A stretch of 64,000 nt of DNA from Lachnospiraceae bacterium. Lineage in GTDB: Bacteria; Bacillota; Clostridia; Lachnospirales; Lachnospiraceae. Below, piece after piece: positions 11,282 through 21,700 of the stretch. The stretch spans positions 62,001 through 126,000 of the forward strand of contig JAGBEV010000026.1 of the NCBI GenBank assembly GCA_017936785.1. Direction: 5' to 3'. Numbering within the stretch: the stretch's first letter is position 1; each line of letters opens with the position of its first letter. The notes beneath the pieces were generated by a model. That model was not told where the DNA came from, searched no databases, and saw nothing but the letters and a program-made list of their open reading frames with translations. A program made the position numbers and the translations under genes.

Positions 11282-12634
11282 ATGGGATTAATCAAAGCAA
11301 TTTCAGGCGCAATCAAAGGGGTTACCGCCGACCAGTGGAAAGAATATTTTTATTGTGACTCATTGGAAGCAGATGTATTGGTAACCAAAGGACGTAGAAG
11401 AAACAACAGTAAATTTGGAACAAGCAACAAAGGAAATGATAATATCATCAGCAATGGTTCTGTTATAGCCGTCAATGAAGGCCAGTGTATGATCATCGTT
11501 GACCAGGGTAAAGTTGTTGAATTCTGTGCTGAGGCAGGAGAATTCATGTACGATACCTCTACCGAACCAAGTCTGTTGTATGGTGATTTGGGCGAAAATA
11601 TCGGAAAGACCTTCACAGCCATTGGCAAGCGTTTTACTTTTGGTGGTGATACCGGCAAGGACCAGAGAGTTTATTTCTTCAATACAAAGGAAATCATGGG
11701 GAATAAATACGGCACTGCCAATCCGGTTCCTTTCCGTGTCGTAGATACCAATATTGGCTTAGATGTAGATATTTCTGTCCGTTGCAATGGAGAGTATTCC
11801 TACCAGATTTTTGACCCGATTCTTTTCTATACCAATGTCTGCGGAAATATTACAGATGAATATACAAGAGACAATATTGACAGTCAGCTAAAATCTGAGT
11901 TGATGACTGCTTTACAGCCAGCCTTTGCACAAATTTCCGCTATGGGAATTCGTTACAGCGCAGTACCTGCCCACACTATGGAGGTTGCAGATGCATTAAA
12001 TAAAATATTGTCTGAAAAATGGGGACAGCTTCGCGGTATCAGGATTGTTTCTTTCGGTGTAAACACTATTAAAGCATCCGAAGAAGACGAAGAAATGATC
12101 AAGGAGCTGCAAAAAACTGCTGTAATGCGCAATCCAAACATGGCAGCTGCTACCCTGGTGGGTGCACAGGCTGAGGCTATGAAGGCTGCTGCTTCCAACA
12201 CCTCCACAGGTCCAATGATGGCATTTGCCGGCATGAATATGGCAAATAATGCAGGCGGTATGGATGCCAATTCTTTATTTACAATGGGTCAGCAGCAGAA
12301 TACTCCACCAGTAGCTCCTGCTCCTGCAGCTCCAAATCCTGCCCCATCACCAGCTCCTGCAGCTGACTCCTGGACCTGTTCCTGCGGCAAGGTCAATCAT
12401 GGCAAATTCTGTGTAGAATGCGGTACTCCAAAACTCGTTCCACAAGCTGGCTGGACATGCTCCTGCGGTGCTGTAAACCAGGGTAAATTCTGTCCGGAAT
12501 GTGGTGCGAAAAAACCTGCCGGTGCACCTTTATATAAATGTGACAAGTGTGGATGGCAGCCAGAGGACCCACACAAGCCACCGAAATTCTGCCCGGAATG
12601 TGGCGATATCTTCGATGAAAATGATATACAGTAA
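11282..12634 (+). CDS. SPFH-domain protein with C-terminal zinc ribbons (YdjI-like)
   Basis: A 450-aa protein. Residues 1-290 match the SPFH/band-7 type seen in Bacillus YdjI (KGVTADQWKEYFYCDSLEAD, IIVDQGKVVEFCAEAGEF, VDTNIGLDVDISVRCNGEYSY). An Ala/Met-rich and Pro-Ala linker (about 290-362) joins three zinc ribbons, each with paired Cys (CSCG/CVECG, CSCG/CPECG, CDKC/CPECG). SPFH proteins scaffold membrane microdomains, and in Bacillus this family works with the PspA-YdjG-YdjH membrane-stress system. AAGGAGAATATT precedes the ATG. Two further members of that system follow, so the three form an operon. No PspA is adjacent. Confidence 0.88.
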   Translation: MGLIKAISGAIKGVTADQWKEYFYCDSLEADVLVTKGRRRNNSKFGTSNKGNDNIISNGSVIAVNEGQCMIIVDQGKVVEFCAEAGEFMYDTSTEPSLLYGDLGENIGKTFTAIGKRFTFGGDTGKDQRVYFFNTKEIMGNKYGTANPVPFRVVDTNIGLDVDISVRCNGEYSYQIFDPILFYTNVCGNITDEYTRDNIDSQLKSELMTALQPAFAQISAMGIRYSAVPAHTMEVADALNKILSEKWGQLRGIRIVSFGVNTIKASEEDEEMIKELQKTAVMRNPNMAAATLVGAQAEAMKAAASNTSTGPMMAFAGMNMANNAGGMDANSLFTMGQQQNTPPVAPAPAAPNPAPSPAPAADSWTCSCGKVNHGKFCVECGTPKLVPQAGWTCSCGAVNQGKFCPECGAKKPAGAPLYKCDKCGWQPEDPHKPPKFCPECGDIFDENDIQ

Positions 12635-12645
12635 GGAGAAGCTTT

Positions 12646-13761
12646 ATGGACGATATAAATGACAAGAACATCGTAGAAACCAACGAAGAAACCGACAAAA
12701 AATGTCCTCAGTGCGGTGGCGTGATGGACTTTAATCCTGCCACAGGTAATCTGAAGTGCCCCTATTGTGATTATGAAGAAATTATTCAGATACAGAAGGA
12801 GGAGCCAAAGAAAGCAGAGGAATTAGATTTTTATGCAGCAGAGCATACTGCCAATAAGAACTGGGGGACGGAAACAAAAACCGTCCTCTGTAATGCATGC
12901 GGTGCCCAGTCCATTTATGATGCATTACAGACCTCTGCAGTTTGCCCATTCTGTGGCTCCAATCAGGTTATGGATGCTAACAGCCAGGATACGATTGCTC
13001 CCGGTGGTGTCGTCCCATTCCGTATTAGCGACAAAGAAGCTTCTGAATTATTTAAAAAATGGATCAAAAGGAGATGGTTTTGTCCGAAACTTGCCAAGGA
13101 CAGTGCAAAGCCAAAGCGTTTTAACGGGATTTACCTGCCATATTGGACCTTCGATGCAGACACCTACTCCTCTTATCATGGTGATTACGGCATTGACCAT
13201 AAAAGAAAAGATCGGGAGGGCAATATCCATATTGAGACAGATTGGCACAGAACCTCCGGTTCATACAGAGAATTTATCAACGATGAACTGGTACTTGCCT
13301 CCTCAAACCACGACATGTCCATACTTCACAAGCTGGAGCCATTTGATACTGAAAATAACAAGGCATACAAACCCGAATATATTGCCGGCTTCGTTGCAGA
13401 ACGGTATTCTCTCGGTCTGAAAGATGCATGGAATACTGCCATGATATCCATCAGGGCAAAATTAAAACATCATATATCCGATAAGATCCAAAGAGAGCAT
13501 CATGCAGACCATGTCCGCAATGTAAATCTCAGAACCGATTACAGTGACATCACCTATAAATACCTGCTGCTGCCCATCTGGATATCCAATTTTAAATACA
13601 ATGACAAGGTATATCAGTTTATGGTAAATGGACAAACCGGTAAGGTTGCAGGAAAGACACCTGTCTCTATTCCAAAGGTTGTTATTACTGTAATCGGAAT
13701 CATTGCAATTATCGCAATTCTGTATTATCTTGACATTTTAAATTTTGATATGTTTTATTAA
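12646..13761 (+). CDS. TFIIB-type zinc-ribbon membrane protein (YdjG-like)
   Basis: A 371-aa protein starting 11 bp after the SPFH gene (AAGGAG, then ATG). It has one zinc ribbon near residue 20 (CPQCGG, CPYCDY) and another near residue 85 (CNACGA, CPFCGS), a large middle domain with YLPYWTFDADTYSSYHGDYG, and a C-terminal membrane helix (about 342-362). The layout matches Bacillus YdjG, a membrane partner of PspA and YdjH. Its molecular role here is inferred from the family. Confidence 0.82.
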   Translation: MDDINDKNIVETNEETDKKCPQCGGVMDFNPATGNLKCPYCDYEEIIQIQKEEPKKAEELDFYAAEHTANKNWGTETKTVLCNACGAQSIYDALQTSAVCPFCGSNQVMDANSQDTIAPGGVVPFRISDKEASELFKKWIKRRWFCPKLAKDSAKPKRFNGIYLPYWTFDADTYSSYHGDYGIDHKRKDREGNIHIETDWHRTSGSYREFINDELVLASSNHDMSILHKLEPFDTENNKAYKPEYIAGFVAERYSLGLKDAWNTAMISIRAKLKHHISDKIQREHHADHVRNVNLRTDYSDITYKYLLLPIWISNFKYNDKVYQFMVNGQTGKVAGKTPVSIPKVVITVIGIIAIIAILYYLDILNFDMFY

Positions 13762-13782
13762 AGGATTTTTTCAAAAAATCCT
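13762..13782 (+). terminator. Short A/T hairpin between the zinc-ribbon and Tim44-like genes
   Basis: AGGATTTTTT and AAAAAATCCT pair around a single C directly after the upstream stop. It could attenuate transcription into the next gene, but the arms are A/T-rich and no long T-run follows. Confidence 0.3.
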
Positions 13783-13806
13783 CATCAGGAACTATATGGA
13801 GGCATT

Positions 13807-14568
13807 ATGAATTACATACCTGTCATTATTATTTTAGTACTGCTTCTGACTATCATTCTTGCCATTTTTTGTGGTATAAGCTATGTAAAACACAAGACAA
13901 AAGAATTATCCCGTACCATTTTTGGTACAGAAAGTCTTTCTGCCGGTGCCCAGCAGATGAAACGGGAATACGCCACAACTCCAAAATCAGTCTCCGCCAT
14001 GACAAGTCTGCTTCTCCCTAAAATTGTATCTGACTTCCCGGATTTCCAGTATGACGAGATGAAAGAGCGGGCAGAAAATCTATTAACACAGTATCTGCGG
14101 GCAGTGACACAGAGAAATGCTGCCATTTTAACAGACGGAAATACAGAGCTGAAACAGCAGCTGGATAATCATATCCAAATGCTTTCTGTTCAGGACCTGC
14201 AGGAACATTTTGACCAGATTAAAATACACCGTACAGAGATCAACCAGTACCGAAAAACTGATGGAAGATGTATTATCACCTTCCAGTCCGCTTTAGAATG
14301 TTACCATTACATCACAGAGCCTTCCTCGGCAATAAAGGAAGGCTCCAGGGATTACAAATATCAAACAAAATACAATACGGATCTAATCTATATTCAGGAC
14401 CGGAATCTGGTAGAAAATGAGCTGGATAACGCACTAGGTGTCAACTGCCCCAACTGCGGAGCCCCTCTTTCTTCTCTTGGTGCAAAAAAATGCGAATACT
14501 GTGGCACACCGGTAATCGAAATCAATATCCATGCCTGGTCCTTTAGCAATGTAGAAGAAATCCGGTAA
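13807..14568 (+). CDS. Tim44-like membrane protein with C-terminal zinc ribbon (YdjH-like)
   Basis: A 253-aa protein with an N-terminal membrane helix (about residues 4-27), a Tim44/NTF2-like middle domain (PKIVSDFPDFQYDEMKERAE, LQEHFDQIKIHRTEINQY) and a terminal zinc ribbon (CPNCGAPL, CEYCGTPV). Length and plan match Bacillus YdjH (about 254 aa). GGAGG is four bases before the ATG. It completes the SPFH, zinc-ribbon and Tim44 trio. It ends four bases before the stop of the convergent dUTPase gene. Confidence 0.8.
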   Translation: MNYIPVIIILVLLLTIILAIFCGISYVKHKTKELSRTIFGTESLSAGAQQMKREYATTPKSVSAMTSLLLPKIVSDFPDFQYDEMKERAENLLTQYLRAVTQRNAAILTDGNTELKQQLDNHIQMLSVQDLQEHFDQIKIHRTEINQYRKTDGRCIITFQSALECYHYITEPSSAIKEGSRDYKYQTKYNTDLIYIQDRNLVENELDNALGVNCPNCGAPLSSLGAKKCEYCGTPVIEINIHAWSFSNVEEIR

Positions 14569-15007: not shown

Positions 15008-15175
15008 TTTTTTCCCTCATTTCTTGCACTGCCTTGTTGAACAGAATATTGCTTGTGCCGCAGCACAGGCACAAACCCTCTGAGAAGCAAAGCTAACCCA
15101 GATTTCTTATCATCCATCATATCATACTCATGGAAATTATCCAATCAGAAATCATTCACACATCCTCTCTGTCCT

Positions 15176-15183
15176 CATACTAT
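15176..15183 (+). promoter_or_regulatory. Possible sporulation-type -10 element upstream of sleC
   Basis: CATACTAT lies 40 bp before the sleC start and resembles the -10 of sigma-E or sigma-G promoters. No convincing -35 match was found at the right distance, so this is weak. Confidence 0.25.
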
Positions 15184-15223
15184 AATATGAAATATATTGT
15201 TTCCCAAACAGAAAGGATTTTCT

Positions 15224-15733
15224 ATGTCAAATCCACTTTCTATGCAGCAGGACCGCCCGGATACCGGTCTGTTACAGGTCAATGTCAATTCTATCCTTGG
15301 TTCCCGTGCCATTGCCGGAGCAACGATACAAATTTTCGATAACAGCCAGCCAGAAGATATACTGGAAGAAGTCACTACCGATGTAAACGGCCAAAGCGAA
15401 GAGATCTCCCTGCCGGCACCGCCACTGGAATACAGTATGGAGCCAAGTGCCCAGCAGCCATATTCTGTATTTAATATCAGGATTACGGCTCCCGGTTATG
15501 AATCGGTTGAAATATCCGGTGCGGAAATCCTCTCCGGTCAAACGGCACTGCAAAATATAGTATTAATGCCGATGAAAGATGCACTGGGAACCAGTGAAGA
15601 ACTGTTTGTCATCCCACCTCATACGCTATATGGAGATTATCCTCCCAAAATAGCAGAAAATGAAATCAAAACCGTTAGTGAAACCGGTGAGATCGTACTT
15701 AGCCGTGTGGTAATCCCCTCTGGTGTGCGATAA
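15224..15733 (+). CDS. sleC: 5' part of an interrupted sleC-type spore cortex-lytic enzyme gene
   Basis: Codons 1-165 (15224-15718) encode the N-terminal pro-region of a SleC-type protein; four more codons (Ser-Gly-Val-Arg) and the TAA at 15731-15733 come from the inserted element. The start is the ATG six bases after AAAGGA; an earlier in-frame ATG at 15197 lacks a ribosome site. Recognisable segments are LLQVNVNSILGSRAIAGATI, a Gly/Pro-rich repeat-like domain, HTLYGDYPPKIAE, and SRVVIP at the break. In SleC proteins the Val-Val-x-Pro is followed directly by Glu-Tyr-x-x-Val-His-Asp-Gly, which is found at 20930. As it stands this fragment has no catalytic domain. See 15719-20929 and 20930-21700. 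Confidence 0.9.
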   Translation: MSNPLSMQQDRPDTGLLQVNVNSILGSRAIAGATIQIFDNSQPEDILEEVTTDVNGQSEEISLPAPPLEYSMEPSAQQPYSVFNIRITAPGYESVEISGAEILSGQTALQNIVLMPMKDALGTSEELFVIPPHTLYGDYPPKIAENEIKTVSETGEIVLSRVVIPSGVR

Positions 15734-16463
15734 AATGGCGCAAGGTGGACGTATCCCATTTTTTTACCTTGTCTGGATTCTGAAACATCTCTCCACTTTT
15801 CCGATACTCTCCCGGCGGATTGATTCCCCGCTCCTGCAATTGTACCTGGATTTCCTCTAAACTGTGCCCCTGCTGTTTCCTCTTACAGATCCATCGGACA
15901 ACTGCCATGGTTTTTTTCTCCTCTATAAGCAATCTTTTTCCATTCTGCCATATTATTTCATATCCATATGGTGCAACACTCCCCAGATAATTTCCTTCCT
16001 TCTTCTTCTGCTGTTTGACCAGATGTACTTTTCGTCCGATATCCTTTGCATACCACTCATTCATCAGATTTCTCATGCTTCCCTCCAGACTTCCCGGAAG
16101 TCCAGTCAAACTATCATAACCATCACTGATACATACCAGACGGATTCCCCATAGAGGAAACAGCTTTTCTATATATTCTCCCGTTTTCAGATAGTCCCTG
16201 CCCAGTCTGGAATAGTCCTTACAGACAATACACTGGATTCTATGCTCCTCGGCGTCCTTTATCATCTGTAGAAATCCCGGACGTGTAAAGCCGGTCCCAC
16301 TATAACCCTGGTCAATATAACACCGGTATTCCTCCAGCTCTGTTCCCTGTTGAGAATGCCTCTGCATCCAGGTTCTTGCCAATAAGATCTGATTTTCAAT
16401 GCTGTTATCTTTCTCATTGCCATGCTCAACCGAAATCCTTGCATAAATTCCCACCTGCTGCAT
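15699..16463 (-). CDS. Serine recombinase 2 of the sleC element (short form)
   Basis: A 254-aa site-specific recombinase. The resolvase domain has catalytic Ser11 (YARISVEHG), NSIENQ, the GTGFTRPGF loop and CKDYSRLGRDYLKTGEYIE. The start of the recombinase (DNA-binding) domain follows (GSVAPYGYEI, WDTSTLRHFIAHQ), but the protein ends there; zinc-ribbon and coiled-coil parts of large serine recombinases are missing. The start is the ATG at 16463, nine bases after GGAGG and overlapping the stop of recombinase 1 (TGATG). The frame could extend to a GTG at 16514. The last codons lie beyond the CCCC core, so its tail (Arg-Gly-Leu-Pro-His-Gly) is partly encoded by sleC and would become Arg-Gly-Leu-Val-Tyr-Val in an excised circle. 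Confidence 0.9.
   Translation of the reverse strand: MQQVGIYARISVEHGNEKDNSIENQILLARTWMQRHSQQGTELEEYRCYIDQGYSGTGFTRPGFLQMIKDAEEHRIQCIVCKDYSRLGRDYLKTGEYIEKLFPLWGIRLVCISDGYDSLTGLPGSLEGSMRNLMNEWYAKDIGRKVHLVKQQKKKEGNYLGSVAPYGYEIIWQNGKRLLIEEKKTMAVVRWICKRKQQGHSLEEIQVQLQERGINPPGEYRKSGEMFQNPDKVKKWDTSTLRHFIAHQRGLPHG
15707..15730 (+). other. attL: left junction of the sleC element
   Basis: Host side GTGGTAAT, then core CCCC (15715-15718), then element arm CTGGTGTGCG (15720-15729). The arm is the inverse of the right-end arm at 20915-20924 with nine of ten bases matching. The dinucleotide CC at 15716-15717 is at the symmetry centre, as expected for the two-base overlap of serine recombinases. Confidence 0.8.
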
Positions 16464-17617
16464 CAGTACTTCCTCCAGACCGTCTTTATCAGAATGGACT
16501 TTCTCTCTGGACACACCTCAATTTTCTGAAAAAACAGCACCAGAAACAACCGTCTCATCCATTCCTCCACAGGTTCCTTCTCCTTCAGGTAATACCGGCA
16601 AAGATAAGAAAATAAATATTCTTCTCCCCATTCCACCTGCTCTGTCAGATGATTTCCGATTCCTGACCACAGATTGCAGAATACCTTTCCTTTCCGGCAT
16701 CGAATCCGCTGCTCTTCCAGCAGTTCTACTCTTTTAAATACCCATTTCGGTATCAAAACCGGCACCCTGTCCTCCACACAGATCCATTCCTTCTCCGGCA
16801 GCTTTCTCCTGACATTTAATTTATAGCTGATCTTTCTATCCTTTCCCTGTTGCATAGCTCCGGTATACATCCTGTTGTGCAGGATACGTCTTACGGAGAG
16901 TGGCGACCAGCGCGCCTCCTCTGCTCTGTCAAATCCAGACTGGTACTGGCTGCCCATCTGTCTCTTATATTCTCTGGGACAAGGGATTTTTTGCCGGTTC
17001 AGAACCTGTGCTATCCGTTCTGCCGCCATGCCTCCCAGACGAAGCCAGTAAATTCCTTTTACAATCTCTGCCACCTGCTCATCAATAACCAGACGGTGGA
17101 CATTATCCTCCGCCTTCTGATATCCATATCCTGCAAATGCACCGATATATTCTCCCATCTGCCGTTTTGTCTGCTGCTGCCATCTTACCTTTTGGGAAAT
17201 ATCCCGGCAATATGCATCATTCATCAGATTTAATACCGGCATTAAAAGAGATTGTTCCATAAACTCACTCTGTATGCTGTCATATTGGTCTGAAATGGCA
17301 ATCAAACGGATTCCCAGCTTTGGAAAAATTTCCTGAAGATAATATCCGGTTTGTATATACTCCCTTCCCAACCGGGATAGATCCTTCACTAAAATACAAT
17401 CAATCTGTCCATCATAAGCTGCATGCATCATCTTTTGAAAACCGGGACGGTCAAAACGGCTTCCGGACCATCCATCATCCACCCACTCTCCAGTCAGAAA
17501 CATATCCGGTTTTTGCCGGATAAACTGCTGGATCAAAAGACGCTGGTTTTGTATACTATTACTCTCTTCTCCCCCGTCTTCCCGAGAAAGCCGGAGATAC
17601 ATTCCACACCGGATCAC
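16463..17617 (-). CDS. Serine recombinase 1 of the sleC element
   Basis: A 384-aa site-specific recombinase. The resolvase domain carries catalytic Ser11 (YLRLSREDGG), NSIQNQRLL, GWSGSRFDRPGFQKM and VKDLSRLGREYIQTGYYL. The recombinase domain follows (about residues 155-300: GAFAGYGYQK, WSPLSVRRILHNRMYTGAM), then a region lacking the usual four-Cys zinc ribbon and a Glu/Arg-rich C-terminus. It starts at a GTG (17617) preceded by GGAGGAGGAAGA and overlaps the 60-aa gene by GTGA; it overlaps recombinase 2 by one base. Coupled translation suggests the two recombinases act as a fixed-ratio pair, perhaps a heteromer. It probably cuts and rejoins the ends at 15716 and 20927. Confidence 0.93.
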   Translation of the reverse strand: MIRCGMYLRLSREDGGEESNSIQNQRLLIQQFIRQKPDMFLTGEWVDDGWSGSRFDRPGFQKMMHAAYDGQIDCILVKDLSRLGREYIQTGYYLQEIFPKLGIRLIAISDQYDSIQSEFMEQSLLMPVLNLMNDAYCRDISQKVRWQQQTKRQMGEYIGAFAGYGYQKAEDNVHRLVIDEQVAEIVKGIYWLRLGGMAAERIAQVLNRQKIPCPREYKRQMGSQYQSGFDRAEEARWSPLSVRRILHNRMYTGAMQQGKDRKISYKLNVRRKLPEKEWICVEDRVPVLIPKWVFKRVELLEEQRIRCRKGKVFCNLWSGIGNHLTEQVEWGEEYLFSYLCRYYLKEKEPVEEWMRRLFLVLFFQKIEVCPERKSILIKTVWRKY

Positions 17618-17796
17618 TCTTCCTCCTCCTTTCCCATTGCAGCCAGATTTTGATACAGCACACTATTTTTTGCTTCCTGATATAATGCCATCGCCTCTTC
17701 CCAGTCCGGCCCCTCCTTAGCATAGCTTACATAAATCTGATAACCGTTTAGCATTCCTGCCGCTTCAAAATCCTCTTTCCATCTTTCTTCTTCCAT
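17614..17796 (-). CDS. 60-aa acidic protein of the sleC element, candidate directionality factor
   Basis: The ATG at 17796 is five bases after GAGG; a longer frame to 17820 would start inside the palindrome and has no ribosome site. The protein is acidic at both ends (MEEERWKEDF, GKEEEE) with a predicted helical middle (DWEEAMALYQEAKNSVLYQNL). I do not recognise a family. It is the first gene of the recombinase operon and is translationally coupled to recombinase 1, so a recombination directionality factor or accessory subunit is a reasonable guess from position and size only. Confidence 0.75.
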   Translation of the reverse strand: MEEERWKEDFEAAGMLNGYQIYVSYAKEGPDWEEAMALYQEAKNSVLYQNLAAMGKEEEE

Positions 17797-17805
17797 AAAA
17801 TCCTC

Positions 17806-17843
17806 AAATAAAAAACACATTAAGCTTAATGTGTTTTTTATTT
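17806..17843. terminator. 38-bp perfect palindrome between cargo and recombinase operons
   Basis: AAATAAAAAACACATTAAG is followed directly by its exact inverse complement, with no unpaired spacer. On the minus strand it follows the stop of the alpha/beta hydrolase gene (17849) by five bases and ends in T6, so it can act as an intrinsic terminator for the cargo operon. It also abuts the ribosome site of the 60-aa gene, leaving no room for a promoter downstream of it, so it may equally be an operator or attenuator of the recombinase operon. Confidence 0.7.
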
Positions 17844-17848
17844 CTATC

Positions 17849-18796
17849 TTATTCTTTATTTGCTGATTCAGAACCTTTTGCAGTCAGGGACGTATGCTGG
17901 CTGATAAATTCCTCCACTTCTTTCCATGCTTCTTCCGATTCCGGCATCCGCATCAGTCCCATCTGGAACACATGAAACATTCCTTCATAAACTGTCTGTC
18001 TCACTTCGCATCCGGCCTTCTTTGCTTTCTCCGCCGCAGAAAGTGTATCACTCAACAGCATTTCTATACTGCCAACCTGAAACAGCATCGGAGGAAGCCC
18101 TGTATAATCTCCAAACAGAGGAGACATATATGGATCCTTTGGATCATGGTCTGCCACATATTCCCCATTATATATCATACTCTCTCTGGTATTTCCAAAG
18201 AGAGGGTCTTTCTCATAATTCTCCGTATAAGAATCACCAGAGGCAGTCAGATCTGTCCATGGTGACATCATGACCAGACATTTTGGAAGAGGCAGCCTGT
18301 TATCCCGCAGATAAAGGCTTAACGCCAATGCCAGTCCACCTCCTGCGGAATCACCTGCCAAAATGATCTGATTTCCCCGATAACCCACATCCAAAAGCCA
18401 CTGATATGCCGCCAGCGCATCCACCAGTGCTGCCGGATAGGGATTTCCCGGTGCCACACGGTAATCAACAGAAAGAACTTTCCGGTATCCTTTCATCTGA
18501 CTGTAAAGAACGGCAAAATCACGGTATACATTCCTCATTTTTCCAATATAACCGCCGCCGTGAAGCTGTAAAACCACTTCCCCACAATCCTCCTGGGGAG
18601 GTGTCAGCAGTTCCATTTCGAAATGATGCATCTGGATGGGCATACACAAATATCCATCCGGACAGTGCCAGGCAGGTTCCACCAGCTTTTTCCGAAAGGT
18701 TCCGTCCTGTATCTTCGGTCCGATAATATGCTGGGAAGTAGAAAATTTAATCACATCCCGGACTATTTTTGCCTTTAAGCTAATCTTTTCTTTCAT
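17849..18796 (-). CDS. Alpha/beta hydrolase of the hormone-sensitive-lipase type (element cargo)
   Basis: A 315-aa esterase/lipase-like enzyme. The oxyanion-hole motif is LQLHGGGYIG (about residues 77-86), the nucleophile elbow is AGDSAGGGLAL (catalytic Ser near residue 150), the acid is the Asp in EMLLSD, and the His is in GMFHVFQ. No signal peptide is seen. GAGGGTACAG precedes the ATG. It is the last gene of a three-gene leftward cargo operon with a zinc-ribbon membrane protein and a condensation-type acyltransferase, suggesting joint handling of an acyl ester. The substrate is unknown. Confidence 0.87.
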   Translation of the reverse strand: MKEKISLKAKIVRDVIKFSTSQHIIGPKIQDGTFRKKLVEPAWHCPDGYLCMPIQMHHFEMELLTPPQEDCGEVVLQLHGGGYIGKMRNVYRDFAVLYSQMKGYRKVLSVDYRVAPGNPYPAALVDALAAYQWLLDVGYRGNQIILAGDSAGGGLALALSLYLRDNRLPLPKCLVMMSPWTDLTASGDSYTENYEKDPLFGNTRESMIYNGEYVADHDPKDPYMSPLFGDYTGLPPMLFQVGSIEMLLSDTLSAAEKAKKAGCEVRQTVYEGMFHVFQMGLMRMPESEEAWKEVEEFISQHTSLTAKGSESANKE

Positions 18797-18847
18797 CTGT
18801 ACCCTCTTTCATTCCCCATCCTTTCTGGACATTTCTATGCTATAAGA

Positions 18848-19528
18848 TTATACGTGAAATTTTCGCTTTAATTCATTGGCCGCCTTCCTGTCTCCAATAA
18901 TCAGAGTTCCCGTCCAGAGAAAAACCGATATTCCTAGTACAACCCATGGCAGAATCATACCCTGAACAATTCCTGACAGATAAAATATCAAATCCAGAAC
19001 ACTTAACAATACCGTAAATAACTGCATGATCACATAGTTTTGCCAGTTTGCATAATTGATGATCATACAGAGGACAATGGTCAGATCAATTCCAAAAATC
19101 ACGCAGGGCAGTCCAACTTCCAATGACCAGCCGCTGAATCCCAGAGTGATATCAATGCAGATGATCAAAGCAATCAGACCAATCACCTGAAGATAAATCT
19201 TACGGATATGCCCGGTTCTTTTATTCAGAATCCCCCGTACTGTTAAAATCAAATAAATGATTGCTCCTCCACTGATGGCTGACCACCAGGTACAGGAATA
19301 TGAATAGGTGTAATAATTAATTATCACCAGTACCGCCTCTATCAGCAAAGCAAAATACATACAAATCCTGCTGATCTGTTTGAGCTTTCTTGTCTTTAAA
19401 CCCACATCAGGGTATTCGTCCGCTGTTTCTTCTGATAATCCTCTTCTTTCCTGCAGTACCATATCACACAGGGGACAGACCGCTATATCATCTGCAACAG
19501 AAACCCCGCATCTTTTACATTTATTCAT
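18848..19528 (-). CDS. Zinc-ribbon polytopic membrane protein (element cargo)
   Basis: A 226-aa protein beginning with a zinc ribbon (CKRCGVSV, CPLCDM within the first 22 residues) and followed by about six membrane helices between residues 52 and 212, ending in a basic tail (KAANELKRKFHV). It resembles the DUF6320-type proteins found beside acyltransferase and hydrolase genes in Clostridia. Its start overlaps the end of the acyltransferase gene by eight bases, indicating tight coupling. Function is unknown. Confidence 0.8.
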   Translation of the reverse strand: MNKCKRCGVSVADDIAVCPLCDMVLQERRGLSEETADEYPDVGLKTRKLKQISRICMYFALLIEAVLVIINYYTYSYSCTWWSAISGGAIIYLILTVRGILNKRTGHIRKIYLQVIGLIALIICIDITLGFSGWSLEVGLPCVIFGIDLTIVLCMIINYANWQNYVIMQLFTVLLSVLDLIFYLSGIVQGMILPWVVLGISVFLWTGTLIIGDRKAANELKRKFHV

Positions 19529-20807
19529 AATACACTCCGTTACTCTCTATTGTTACATCAATTCCATCCTGCACCAGTGTTTTAAAAAACCTCCTTTGTA
19601 TGGAAGCGTCCCGCAGTATGGAACTAAAGGTAAATACCAGTTCATCTTTATAGGAACAGATGGTTCCTTTTACATTTTGTCCCGCTGATACCGAAAGCAT
19701 AGCACAAAATCGTCTGATATACGGCTGATATGGCTCGTCCACCTGCATTGCTCCAATATTGGTCATGGTAGTGGTAGTTGCCTTTGCACTGGAATAATAA
19801 ACCCAGCGCATGGCAATTTTTTTGATAAGCAGCGGTACCGCACGCAAAACCAGATTTTTTTGATTAGAGACATTATAGGAAAACAATTTTTCCAGATGCT
19901 CCTTGTTAATCTGTTCCCTAAGGCTTTTTACTACGATCTCTGTCACCTCTTCCAGAGTATACTCCTCTTTCTCAGGATGAAAAACAGCACTGACCATAGC
20001 AAAAAAATTCCTCGTGGTGAGAGATTCAAAATAGGGTCGCAGGTTTACCGGAATACAGGTAACAACAGGCTTCTTGGAAACCGCTCCATGTAAATATTCT
20101 TTGTAAATACTGTAGGTATATACACTTGCCAGGTATTCGTTGATGCTGATTCCTCTCTCTCTGGAAACCTGCCTGAGTTGTTCCACAGACATATAACCAT
20201 GAATCACTCCAAGAGCTCCTGTCCGCAGTTTTTCCCCTTTGATATGCACTGCCGGTTCCGATTTATACCCCCTGGGCTGGCTCTTTTTATAATTTTTCAG
20301 ATAACTGTCCTCCGTATTCAGAGAAGTGGTATCTGATAGTTCATCTCCTGTCACCTTGCAGAGTGAAGGATATTTCAGACGAAGATACTGGTAAGTCAGC
20401 TCTTTCAAAAAAGTTACTCCGCCCATCCCATCCGCCAGTACATGAAACACCTCCAAATTGATACGACATTTATAATAAGTCACCCGGAACAGATAATTTC
20501 GGTTGGTATGGGGTTCTATATAACGGCAGGGATAATCATTCTCCTCTGTCACCAGCGGAGCACCCTTCCGGTTGGTCTCAAAATAATACCAGAATACTCC
20601 CGTGCGCATCCGCACATTCATCGAATCAAACCAAGGGAGAATCCGAACCAAAGCCTCCTGCAGCAATTCCTTATCAATTTCCTCTGTCAGAGTCACTGAA
20701 ATCCGATACACATTCGTCATGCTCTCTGTGGCGATCACAGGAAACAGATTTGCTGTGTTATCAAGCTTTGCCCAGCGGATTTCCTTTCTTTTGGTTCGTT
20801 CTTTCAT
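19521..20807 (-). CDS. Condensation-domain-like alcohol acyltransferase (element cargo)
   Basis: A 428-aa member of the CoA-dependent acyltransferase superfamily, related to alcohol acetyltransferases and condensation domains. The HxxxDG catalytic motif is present as FHVLADGMGG, with a second conserved segment near CIPVNLRPYFES. The ATG at 20807 follows GGAGAGAAGC; the frame stays open to 20852, but the added part has no ribosome site that fits as well. It is the first gene of the cargo operon, whose promoter must lie in the 122 bp up to the right element end. The acyl acceptor cannot be told from sequence. Confidence 0.82.
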   Translation of the reverse strand: MKERTKRKEIRWAKLDNTANLFPVIATESMTNVYRISVTLTEEIDKELLQEALVRILPWFDSMNVRMRTGVFWYYFETNRKGAPLVTEENDYPCRYIEPHTNRNYLFRVTYYKCRINLEVFHVLADGMGGVTFLKELTYQYLRLKYPSLCKVTGDELSDTTSLNTEDSYLKNYKKSQPRGYKSEPAVHIKGEKLRTGALGVIHGYMSVEQLRQVSRERGISINEYLASVYTYSIYKEYLHGAVSKKPVVTCIPVNLRPYFESLTTRNFFAMVSAVFHPEKEEYTLEEVTEIVVKSLREQINKEHLEKLFSYNVSNQKNLVLRAVPLLIKKIAMRWVYYSSAKATTTTMTNIGAMQVDEPYQPYIRRFCAMLSVSAGQNVKGTICSYKDELVFTFSSILRDASIQRRFFKTLVQDGIDVTIESNGVYYE

Positions 20808-20914
20808 GCTTCTCTCCATTCCTGCGCACACATATGCGCATCCCTTTTTCAAAACTATTCTAGCAGACTATAAGGGAGATTTCCACCTCAATATAATATT
20901 TAACTCAAACTAAA

Positions 20915-20938
20915 CGTACACCAGCCCCCGAATATGTA
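20915..20938 (+). other. attR: right junction of the sleC element
   Basis: Element arm CGTACACCAG (20915-20924), a C, the core CCCC (20926-20929), then host sequence GAATATGTA. The arm is the inverse complement of the left arm at 15720-15729 except one base. The dinucleotide CC at 20927-20928 is at the symmetry centre. Confidence 0.8.
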
Positions 20939-21700
20939 ATCGTCCATGACGGACCACCTTCTGACTCCAGGGCAAAAAACTATTATGTAAAATACAAAGA
21001 CTACATCAAAAATGTAGCATCCAGCGAAATCTATGCTACCTGGCCTGAAGCAACACTTTATGCAAATATTCTTGCCATTCAGTCCATTACCTTAAACCGC
21101 GTCTACACAGAATGGTATCGCAATAAGGGCTACGATTTTACCATTACCAGTTCAACTGCTTACGACCAGAAATGGATTTCCGGACGTAATATCTATGCAA
21201 GTATTTCGGAAGCAGTAGATACCATTTTTGCCAATTTCATCTCCAGACCAAATATTACCCAGCCGCTTTTTACACAATACTGTGATGGCAGACAGGTTTC
21301 CTGTCCGAACTGGATGCGGCAGTGGGATTCTAAATATCTGGGAGACCAGGGATACTCCGCAATTGAAATTCTCCGCACCTTCTACGGAGATTCTGTTTAT
21401 ATTAATTCTTCTGATGAAATCTCGGGTATTCCTTCCTCCTGGCCGGGATATGATCTGACTGTTGGCTCTATCGGCGATAAAGTACGTCAGATGCAGCATC
21501 AGTTAAATGTAATTTCCAAAGGATATCCTCTCATTCCAAAAGTAGCAGAGGATGGCATTTATGGAGAAAAAACAGCCGATGCAGTAAGAACCTTCCAAAA
21601 AATATTTAATCTGCCTCAGACCGGTGTTGTAGATTTTCCAACCTGGTATCGGATTTCTGAAATTTTCGTTGGCGTAAGCCGTATCGCAGAACTGGCTTAG
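20930..21700 (+). CDS. sleC: 3' part of the interrupted sleC gene: catalytic and peptidoglycan-binding domains
   Basis: 256 codons without a stop or frameshift, lacking their own start and ribosome site, so silent unless joined to the 5' part. It begins EYVIVHDGPPSD, then carries a SpoIID-like lytic transglycosylase domain with the catalytic Glu in VASSEIYATWPEA, followed by ITSSTAYDQKW, TQYCDGRQVSCPNWMRQW and KYLGDQGYSAIE. The C-terminal peptidoglycan-binding domain spans the last 80 residues (VGSIGDKVRQMQHQLN, EDGIYGEKTADAVRTFQK). Order and length match SleC, which degrades spore cortex during germination after Csp cleavage. An ORF caller would start it only at a Met at 21314 and miss half of it. 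Confidence 0.92.
   Translation, partial: EYVIVHDGPPSDSRAKNYYVKYKDYIKNVASSEIYATWPEATLYANILAIQSITLNRVYTEWYRNKGYDFTITSSTAYDQKWISGRNIYASISEAVDTIFANFISRPNITQPLFTQYCDGRQVSCPNWMRQWDSKYLGDQGYSAIEILRTFYGDSVYINSSDEISGIPSSWPGYDLTVGSIGDKVRQMQHQLNVISKGYPLIPKVAEDGIYGEKTADAVRTFQKIFNLPQTGVVDFPTWYRISEIFVGVSRIAELA

Follow-up and report, generated by a model that had tools for sequence, protein, structure and literature searches.

Can a spore germination enzyme still be made when its gene lies in two pieces 5.2 kb apart and, if so, by what event are the pieces joined? The question is raised by sleC, encoding a spore cortex-lytic enzyme, in a 64,000-nucleotide stretch of DNA (hereafter the window) from a Lachnospiraceae bacterium (GenBank assembly GCA_017936785.1, contig JAGBEV010000026.1, positions 62,001 to 126,000). 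We consider it highly probable that the DNA between the pieces is a small, likely host-adapted gene-intervening element, and predict that the two serine recombinases it encodes excise it from the mother-cell chromosome during sporulation, which would restore the reading frame. The three features concerned are these:

15224..15718, + strand: sleC 5' part (N-part), N-terminal region, 165 codons, from the open reading frame (ORF) list and residues 58-220 of the solved structure 9h68_A
15719..20929, no strand: intervening element, 5211 bp, from the sequence and a comparison of its ends
20930..21700, + strand: sleC 3' part (C-part), 256 codons, with SpoIID-like and PG_binding_1 domains (Pfam), residues 221-476 of 9h68_A

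An earlier reading of the window, made from its letters alone (the sequence-only reading), had placed both parts and the insert at exactly these coordinates and called the parts undamaged; both statements hold. The N-part ends in SRVVIP, the C-part opens with EYVIVHDG, and neither contains a stop. The proposed identity as SleC is borne out by the domains of the C-part together with contiguous matches to 9h68_A (Spore cortex-lytic enzyme pre-pro-form), on which N-part (E 1.8e-20) and C-part (E 6.8e-102) abut with neither gap nor overlap. Excision had been expected to leave an in-frame junction typical of the family, and residue 165 is indeed joined directly to residue 166 in the 13 intact orthologues compared (eight of genus g1, including a second copy from the window's own assembly, and G285, G115, G309, G178 and G019). 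The first ATG, GTG or TTG in the C-part frame comes only at 21314, so that the first 128 residues of this part cannot be translated on their own from a common start codon. The crossover sits within a run of C, and the edges of the element are therefore exact only up to that run; a 10 + 6 + 10 bp dyad, which the two ends would form together, appears to fit the in-frame choice of edges.

Recurrence of the split gene in relatives

When the C-part was searched against 397 genomes of the family, the two best matches outside the window's assembly were short frames, in G199 (261 aa) and G293 (293 aa). The genera of these genomes, g286 for G293 (3 genomes) and that of G199 (28 genomes), were searched with the N-part, which found matches in two and 23 genomes, respectively. 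A split at the codon interrupted in the window (site A) is present in two of the three genomes of g286 (G293, G404) and in nine of the 28 of the other genus (G199, G405, G406, G407, G414, G415, G417, G424, G427). Seven of these eleven relatives are assembled across the element and four end inside it. The eight complete elements, that of the window included, measure 4905-5213 bp, and each has the left-edge sequence ATCCCC and the right-edge sequence CCCCC-GA; four further left ends and one right end carry the same codon and end motifs. The element thus occupies one exact site inside a sporulation gene, for which expression in the mother cell is probable. Gene order in G293 runs dut, sleC N-part, recombinases B and A, small ORF, esterase, DUF6320, acyltransferase, sleC C-part, dgk, queA, ppx; order and dut/dgk/queA/ppx neighbourhood are shared by G293, G404 and the window. 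The split reported for the single locus is real, and it was drawn too narrowly: at least two other genera share it, and sleC is broken at other sites too. Judged by this comparison, recurrence of the same split with the same ends in other genera is more than chance. Separate, decayed halves, which the sequence-only reading had said to look for in relatives, were found in none of the split relatives compared, which keep the same codon, open frames and purifying selection.

The other 19 genomes of G199's genus comprise eight with an unbroken sleC (G408, G413, G419, G420, G421, G425, G426, G428), four with sleC broken at other sites (G409, G422, G429, G430), five without an N-part match, G411 with a continuous gene holding two stops, and G416 with a gene that passes site A before the contig ends. 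SpoIVA scored above cut-off in 13 of 14 genomes queried.

Both parts of sleC are under purifying selection. By the Nei-Gojobori method, applied to split pairs with countable synonymous divergence (dS), the nonsynonymous-to-synonymous ratio (dN/dS) is 0.068-0.143 for the N-part (6 pairs) and 0.027-0.054 for the C-part (4 pairs with dS of 1.7-2.1, hence rough values); the C-part of two intact species gives 0.043. The recombinases show ratios of 0.06-0.12 (A) and 0.13-0.21 (B; 6 pairs each).

Joined counterparts of split proteins occur in public data. The N-part was searched against 5.8 billion proteins with a length window admitting short proteins only, and the best 120 of 1575 matches at E <= 1e-15 were examined. 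Eighty-three stop soon after VVIP with an arm reading x-G/A-V, as at site A; 13 depart from the family sequence before RVYTEW, 23 reach RVYTEW and one is of another kind, and some of these short proteins may be contig-end fragments. Among the best 120 of 7988 C-part matches, 96 proteins have at least 380 aa, 90 of them with a VVIP-E junction. A joined protein at 95% identity or more exists for nine of the 83 site-A N-parts in that best 120. In three cases a joined protein agrees with split partners over its N-part and its C-part alike and reads through VVIP-EY without any extra residue: P0152 (N-part 99.4% to P0084/P0087, C-part 100% to P0150), P0136 (96.3% to P0023, 100% to P0134) and P0123 (98.2% to P0042, 98.7% to P0214/P0220). 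Each of these three joined proteins stands for a cluster of a single sequence and each split partner for one of 5 to 450, sizes that would match excision in a minority of cells.

The region upstream of sleC suggests when the gene is used:

15157..15184, + strand: match to a promoter of sigma-K type, CAC-N16-CATACTATA, separated from the start of sleC by 39 nt; from a pattern search

The pattern [AC]AC-N15-17-CATAnnnTA, the textbook form of a sigma-K promoter, was picked after viewing the upstream regions and applied to 21 of the 28 N-part loci from the two genera and the window (the others being G411, G416, G419, G420, G421 and two of the three loci of G427). It occurs upstream of sleC in 16 of the 21, where dinucleotide shuffles lead one to expect 0.13, and is spread over site-A (8/12), intact (4/5) and otherwise broken loci (4/4). 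The sleC gene of Clostridioides difficile is transcribed from a sigma-K promoter, the -35 motif of sigma-K being AC (PMC3789822). It is because of this promoter type and the C. difficile precedent that we infer sporulation as the time of excision.

The element, its genes and its ends

From left to right, the element presents the following features:

15715..15729, + strand: left end, core run CCCC followed by the arm TCTGGTGTGCG, from the sequence and comparison with relatives
15699..16514, - strand: serine recombinase B, 271 aa; Pfam Resolvase and partial Recombinase, no zinc-ribbon match
16463..17617, - strand: serine recombinase A, 384 aa; Pfam Resolvase and Recombinase, no zinc-ribbon match; 11 sequences aligned
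17614..17820, - strand: small ORF immediately preceding recombinase A, listed with 68 aa but with an uncertain start codon; ORF list
17806..17843, no strand: perfect 19-bp inverted repeat, terminator-like, between the esterase gene and the recombinase genes; from the sequence
17849..18796, - strand: alpha/beta-hydrolase (esterase-like), cargo; Pfam Abhydrolase_3
18848..19528, - strand: DUF6320 protein, cargo; Pfam
19521..20852, - strand: acyltransferase-like protein, cargo; weak TIGR02946 match below cut-off, no Pfam match
20915..20929, + strand: right end, arm CGTACACCAG followed by the core run CCCCC, from the sequence and comparison with relatives

All six ORFs are antisense to sleC. Pfam agrees with the sequence-only reading in finding two serine recombinases in the insert, and elements of relatives likewise carry site-specific recombinases. 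No phage family was matched by any of the six ORFs (Pfam and NCBIfam), and on this measure the element is not prophage-like; the locus had no match in the plasmid collection. Zn_ribbon_recom was found in none of eight site-A recombinases scanned at E 0.01 (the window's two and six from relatives), which thus lack the full domain set of large serine recombinases; of the two recombinases scanned from site C, where sleC of G427 is broken a second time, one reaches the zinc-ribbon family cut-off and the other falls just below. For both recombinases of the window CcrB is the best NCBIfam match, far below its cut-off, and an AlphaFold model of recombinase A has a mean pLDDT (predicted local distance difference test) of 69. 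When the recombinase-A alignment was compared with a collection of named genomes, one locus with sleC parts appeared among the 80 kept from the matches listed, and none of the 80 revealed a cultured host with a name; by this count the recombinase-A family is common and mostly outside sleC. The small ORF has no Pfam or NCBIfam match and is a candidate directionality factor; it has relatives in G293 and G404 and counterparts of similar size in G407, G417, G415 and G424, and was not clear in G414, G405, G427 and G406.

The ends combine a short core repeat with inverted arms, and the frame is open after precise removal of what lies between. Joined end to end, the arms would form the single dyad mentioned above; those of one element agree at 8-12 of 14 positions, random pairs at a mean of 3.5. 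The stop and last codons of recombinase B are encoded by the antisense strand of sleC (15699-15718), in the window as in G293, G404, G424 and G406, and excision would consequently change the C-terminus of this recombinase.

In G408, G428 and G413 (loci L149, L150, L152) the esterase, DUF6320 and acyltransferase genes stand just downstream of an unbroken sleC, outside any element, and the idea of the insert as simple imported cargo was set aside on this ground. In the trees, intact species are placed among split ones, and the acyltransferase tree mixes both states. Trees and cargo genes beside unbroken sleC together suggest that the state of the locus has flipped more than once, the cargo staying near. 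Further upstream in the window, three ORFs before dut (11282-14568) resemble, on visual inspection, genes for an SPFH/zinc-ribbon protein and its companions.

Proposed excision and its alternatives

The proposed sequence of events is as follows. Arms of the CTGGTGT type would be the binding sites of the recombinases and the run of C the place of strand exchange, before or as sigma-K comes on. The element would depart as a circle that carries the acyltransferase, DUF6320 and esterase genes; the mother cell would then make pro-SleC for the spore, in whose genome the element would be retained and transmitted. Because the mother cell dies, the lineage would pay no price for excision, and this would account for the persistence of the split.

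Several observations weigh against this proposal. The shortened recombinases might be inactive or partner-dependent, and G405 (L145 3858-5375) has a single recombinase beside an N-part of 47% identity and similar ends. No sigma-K match was found upstream of the recombinase genes in 11 elements, and a sigma-E-like match in only one; the sigma-K match is missing upstream of sleC in five of the 21 loci, four of them split (G405, G427, G417, G406), and lies 101 nt upstream of the gene in G408. Arms fit their own partners with a score of 80, compared with a mean of 74.5 for partners from other elements, and 115 of 1842 derangements score as high, so that arm co-variation appears weak. In a first run synonymous sites were saturated in six of the 12 N-part pairs and in four of the six C-part pairs, and in a second only 4 of 21 C-part pairs came under the dS limit of 3, the remaining 17 being at 3 or more. 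The site-A label requires two changes of state on the C-part tree, four on that of the N-part and three on that of the acyltransferase. The eight unbroken species in G199's genus imply that the element is not needed for the use of sleC. Additionally, the joined proteins in public data could equally stem from strains without the element.

One alternative is switching at strain level, or reversibly, with no link to sporulation: the element would leave and enter at low rate in vegetative cells, or be absent from some strains, and sleC would offer it a harmless place to insert. Species with an intact and with a split gene alternate in G199's genus, joined proteins nearly identical to split ones exist, and a sporulation promoter was not found for the recombinases of the 11 elements, all of which such switching would accommodate. 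Against it, neighbourhood and cargo have stayed the same in genus g286 and the window while the recombinases diverged, both sleC parts are under purifying selection, and the target has a sigma-K-type promoter, as befits a terminal mother-cell gene. We regard this alternative as unlikely, and programmed excision in the mother cell as the explanation to be preferred.

Could the two parts instead function as separate proteins that are never rejoined? The N-part has its own start and promoter, and an in-frame start codon is available upstream of the C-part in G293, G407 and G414. In the window, G404 and G415, however, the first start codon is reached only some way into the C-part, and the ends of the element have stayed precisely where the two residues meet in intact members of the family, which makes this possibility very improbable. 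Still a shade less credible is a dead insertion, with sleC a pseudogene in the split lineages. The gene is physically split in an assembled chromosome and its C-part in the window lacks a start codon over its first half, as a pseudogene might. Yet the compared parts are free of stops with dN/dS far below 1, the exact in-frame ends are kept despite 33% divergence of the N-part protein between window and G293, and the split copy is the sole sleC N-part match in 10 of 11 split relatives. Open frames, low dN/dS and the kept junction led us to reject decay and separate proteins alike.

A second, intact sleC was a further point that the sequence-only reading had marked for checking. The window's assembly does contain one, at G000:C19, on a contig nearest to another genus. 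This assembly has a contamination figure of 8.77, two queA and two sleC. The C19 sleC is 92-93% identical to those of G001 and G007, 84% to that of G004 and 70-71% to those of the four other g1 genomes compared; the second queA (C65) is 84% identical to that of G008, the sole g1 genome compared, in a match that holds one stop. The window's queA and sleC C-part, by contrast, are 84-85% identical to those of G293 and 65-74% to the g1 copies. The assembly appears to combine two genomes from the same family and, with C19 near g1 and the window's genes near G293, the intact sleC is on this evidence not from the window's organism. The ten other genomes in which the split copy is the only N-part match are G199, G293, G404, G405, G406, G407, G414, G415, G417 and G424; G427, the exception, has three matches. 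An assembly chimera, which so mixed an assembly might bring to mind, is refuted by the same structure in seven other assemblies, one of them on a 1.5-Mb contig, and its probability is negligible.

Other breaks in sleC and known systems

The gene is interrupted elsewhere as well. In G429, G409 and G422 the break falls at about residue 190, next to an integrase of the tyrosine type (confirmed by Pfam for G429 and G409), at L141 704-3912, L143 5225-6501 and L144 5308-6588; by eye, phage-type genes follow the integrase in G409 and G422, and G429 has only a 2.4-kb insert. G427 and G430 are broken near residue 227, in G427 beside a large serine recombinase. One gene of G427 (L139 3908-11998) thus holds two inserts, the site-A element and the site-C break: 62 codons past the site-A element stands the large serine recombinase, and next to it a second gene for dUTPase. 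A search of the 397 family genomes with the N-part gave, among the matches listed, 26 frames shorter than 380 aa, three of which are site A (G000, G199, G293). Twenty of the other 23 loci were fetched (L241-L260): six break at residues 225-229, 11 at 292-321, one is frameshift-like and two are at contig ends. The remainder of sleC was seen on the fetched stretch in six of the 17 broken genes (G326, G111, G062, G171, G260, G232), and the breaks of G326 and G111 lie within chromosome-sized contigs (3.5 and 3.8 Mb). A serine-recombinase-like ORF, called by a motif that we take to mark such proteins, stands within about 1.1 kb of the break in seven of the 11 breaks at 292-321 (in G201 by eye). Rejoined by the rule of the longest exact repeat, the reading looks family-like for G111, G429 and G232, and not for G062, G260 and G326.

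Slightly better than an even case can be made from this for a broader proposal, that among the genes of the Lachnospiraceae sleC is the principal one to undergo programmed rearrangement, taken at no fewer than four sites by a short serine pair, a tyrosine integrase and large serine recombinases. At site A the element would then have become a genetic switch of long standing, which has captured a host operon and works with a pair of shortened recombinases, and germination of many spores would hang on excision in the mother cell.

Comparison with known systems, drawn from parts of three papers (PMC5025042, PMC5595907, PMC10747680), shows both analogy and difference. As at sleC, skin in sigK of Bacillus subtilis and C. 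difficile is a serine-recombinase element that splits a mother-cell sporulation gene, rejoined by excision (PMC5025042). Skin, however, is prophage-like and has one large serine recombinase, with a directionality factor in C. difficile, whereas the sleC element has 5.2 kb, no recognised phage genes and two short recombinases, and the gene that it splits encodes a germination hydrolase and not a sigma factor. The gin element in gerE of Bacillus cereus is closer in being non-phage, in having more than one serine recombinase and in its sigma-K-stage target; unlike the sleC element, which has a single operon for two short recombinases and whose cargo adjoins sleC in some intact relatives, gin has 28.6 kb and three recombinases, of which GirC excises together with the factor GirX (PMC5595907). 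The yin element in yabG, vfbin in spoVFB and SP-beta in spsM likewise intervene in sporulation genes, but are described as prophage-like (PMC10747680). The ccrA/ccrB pair of the staphylococcal cassette chromosome (SCC) also consists of two serine recombinases in one operon (PMC5595907); the Ccr profiles have 442-558 positions and SCC carries resistance cassettes, in contrast to ORFs of 239-399 aa fixed in sleC. The interrupted sporulation genes named in the accessible portion of PMC10747680 are sigK, spsM, spoVFB, gerE and yabG, with sleC not among them, to which that of PMC5025042 adds spoVR. A literature search, which left subscription papers and preprints outside its range, found no report of an element in sleC. 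We therefore understand the insert as a real, conserved and very likely functional gene-intervening element, which would work much as skin and gin do and is new in target and build. The best reading is that a skin-like developmental element has been domesticated within the gene for a germination hydrolase.

Lastly, the finding bears on the biology of spore formers in this family. As far as the cited portions of these papers extend, rearrangement in sporulation has involved genes for a sigma factor, a transcription factor, a protease, coat polysaccharide and dipicolinate, and spoVR. The protease YabG itself processes pre-pro-SleC in C. difficile (PMC10747680). With sleC it is the enzyme by which the cortex is broken down at germination that is affected, and the element is small, not recognisably phage, common to several genera and inserted in a gene that is struck elsewhere too. 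The system poses the question whether serine recombinases without their usual C-terminal domains can run an excision, and it offers natural parallel cases for studying what makes the genes of a cell about to die a secure refuge for mobile DNA. If excision is true, sleC genes annotated as broken in such genomes would be working ones, and spore germination in the family would depend on programmed removal of DNA.

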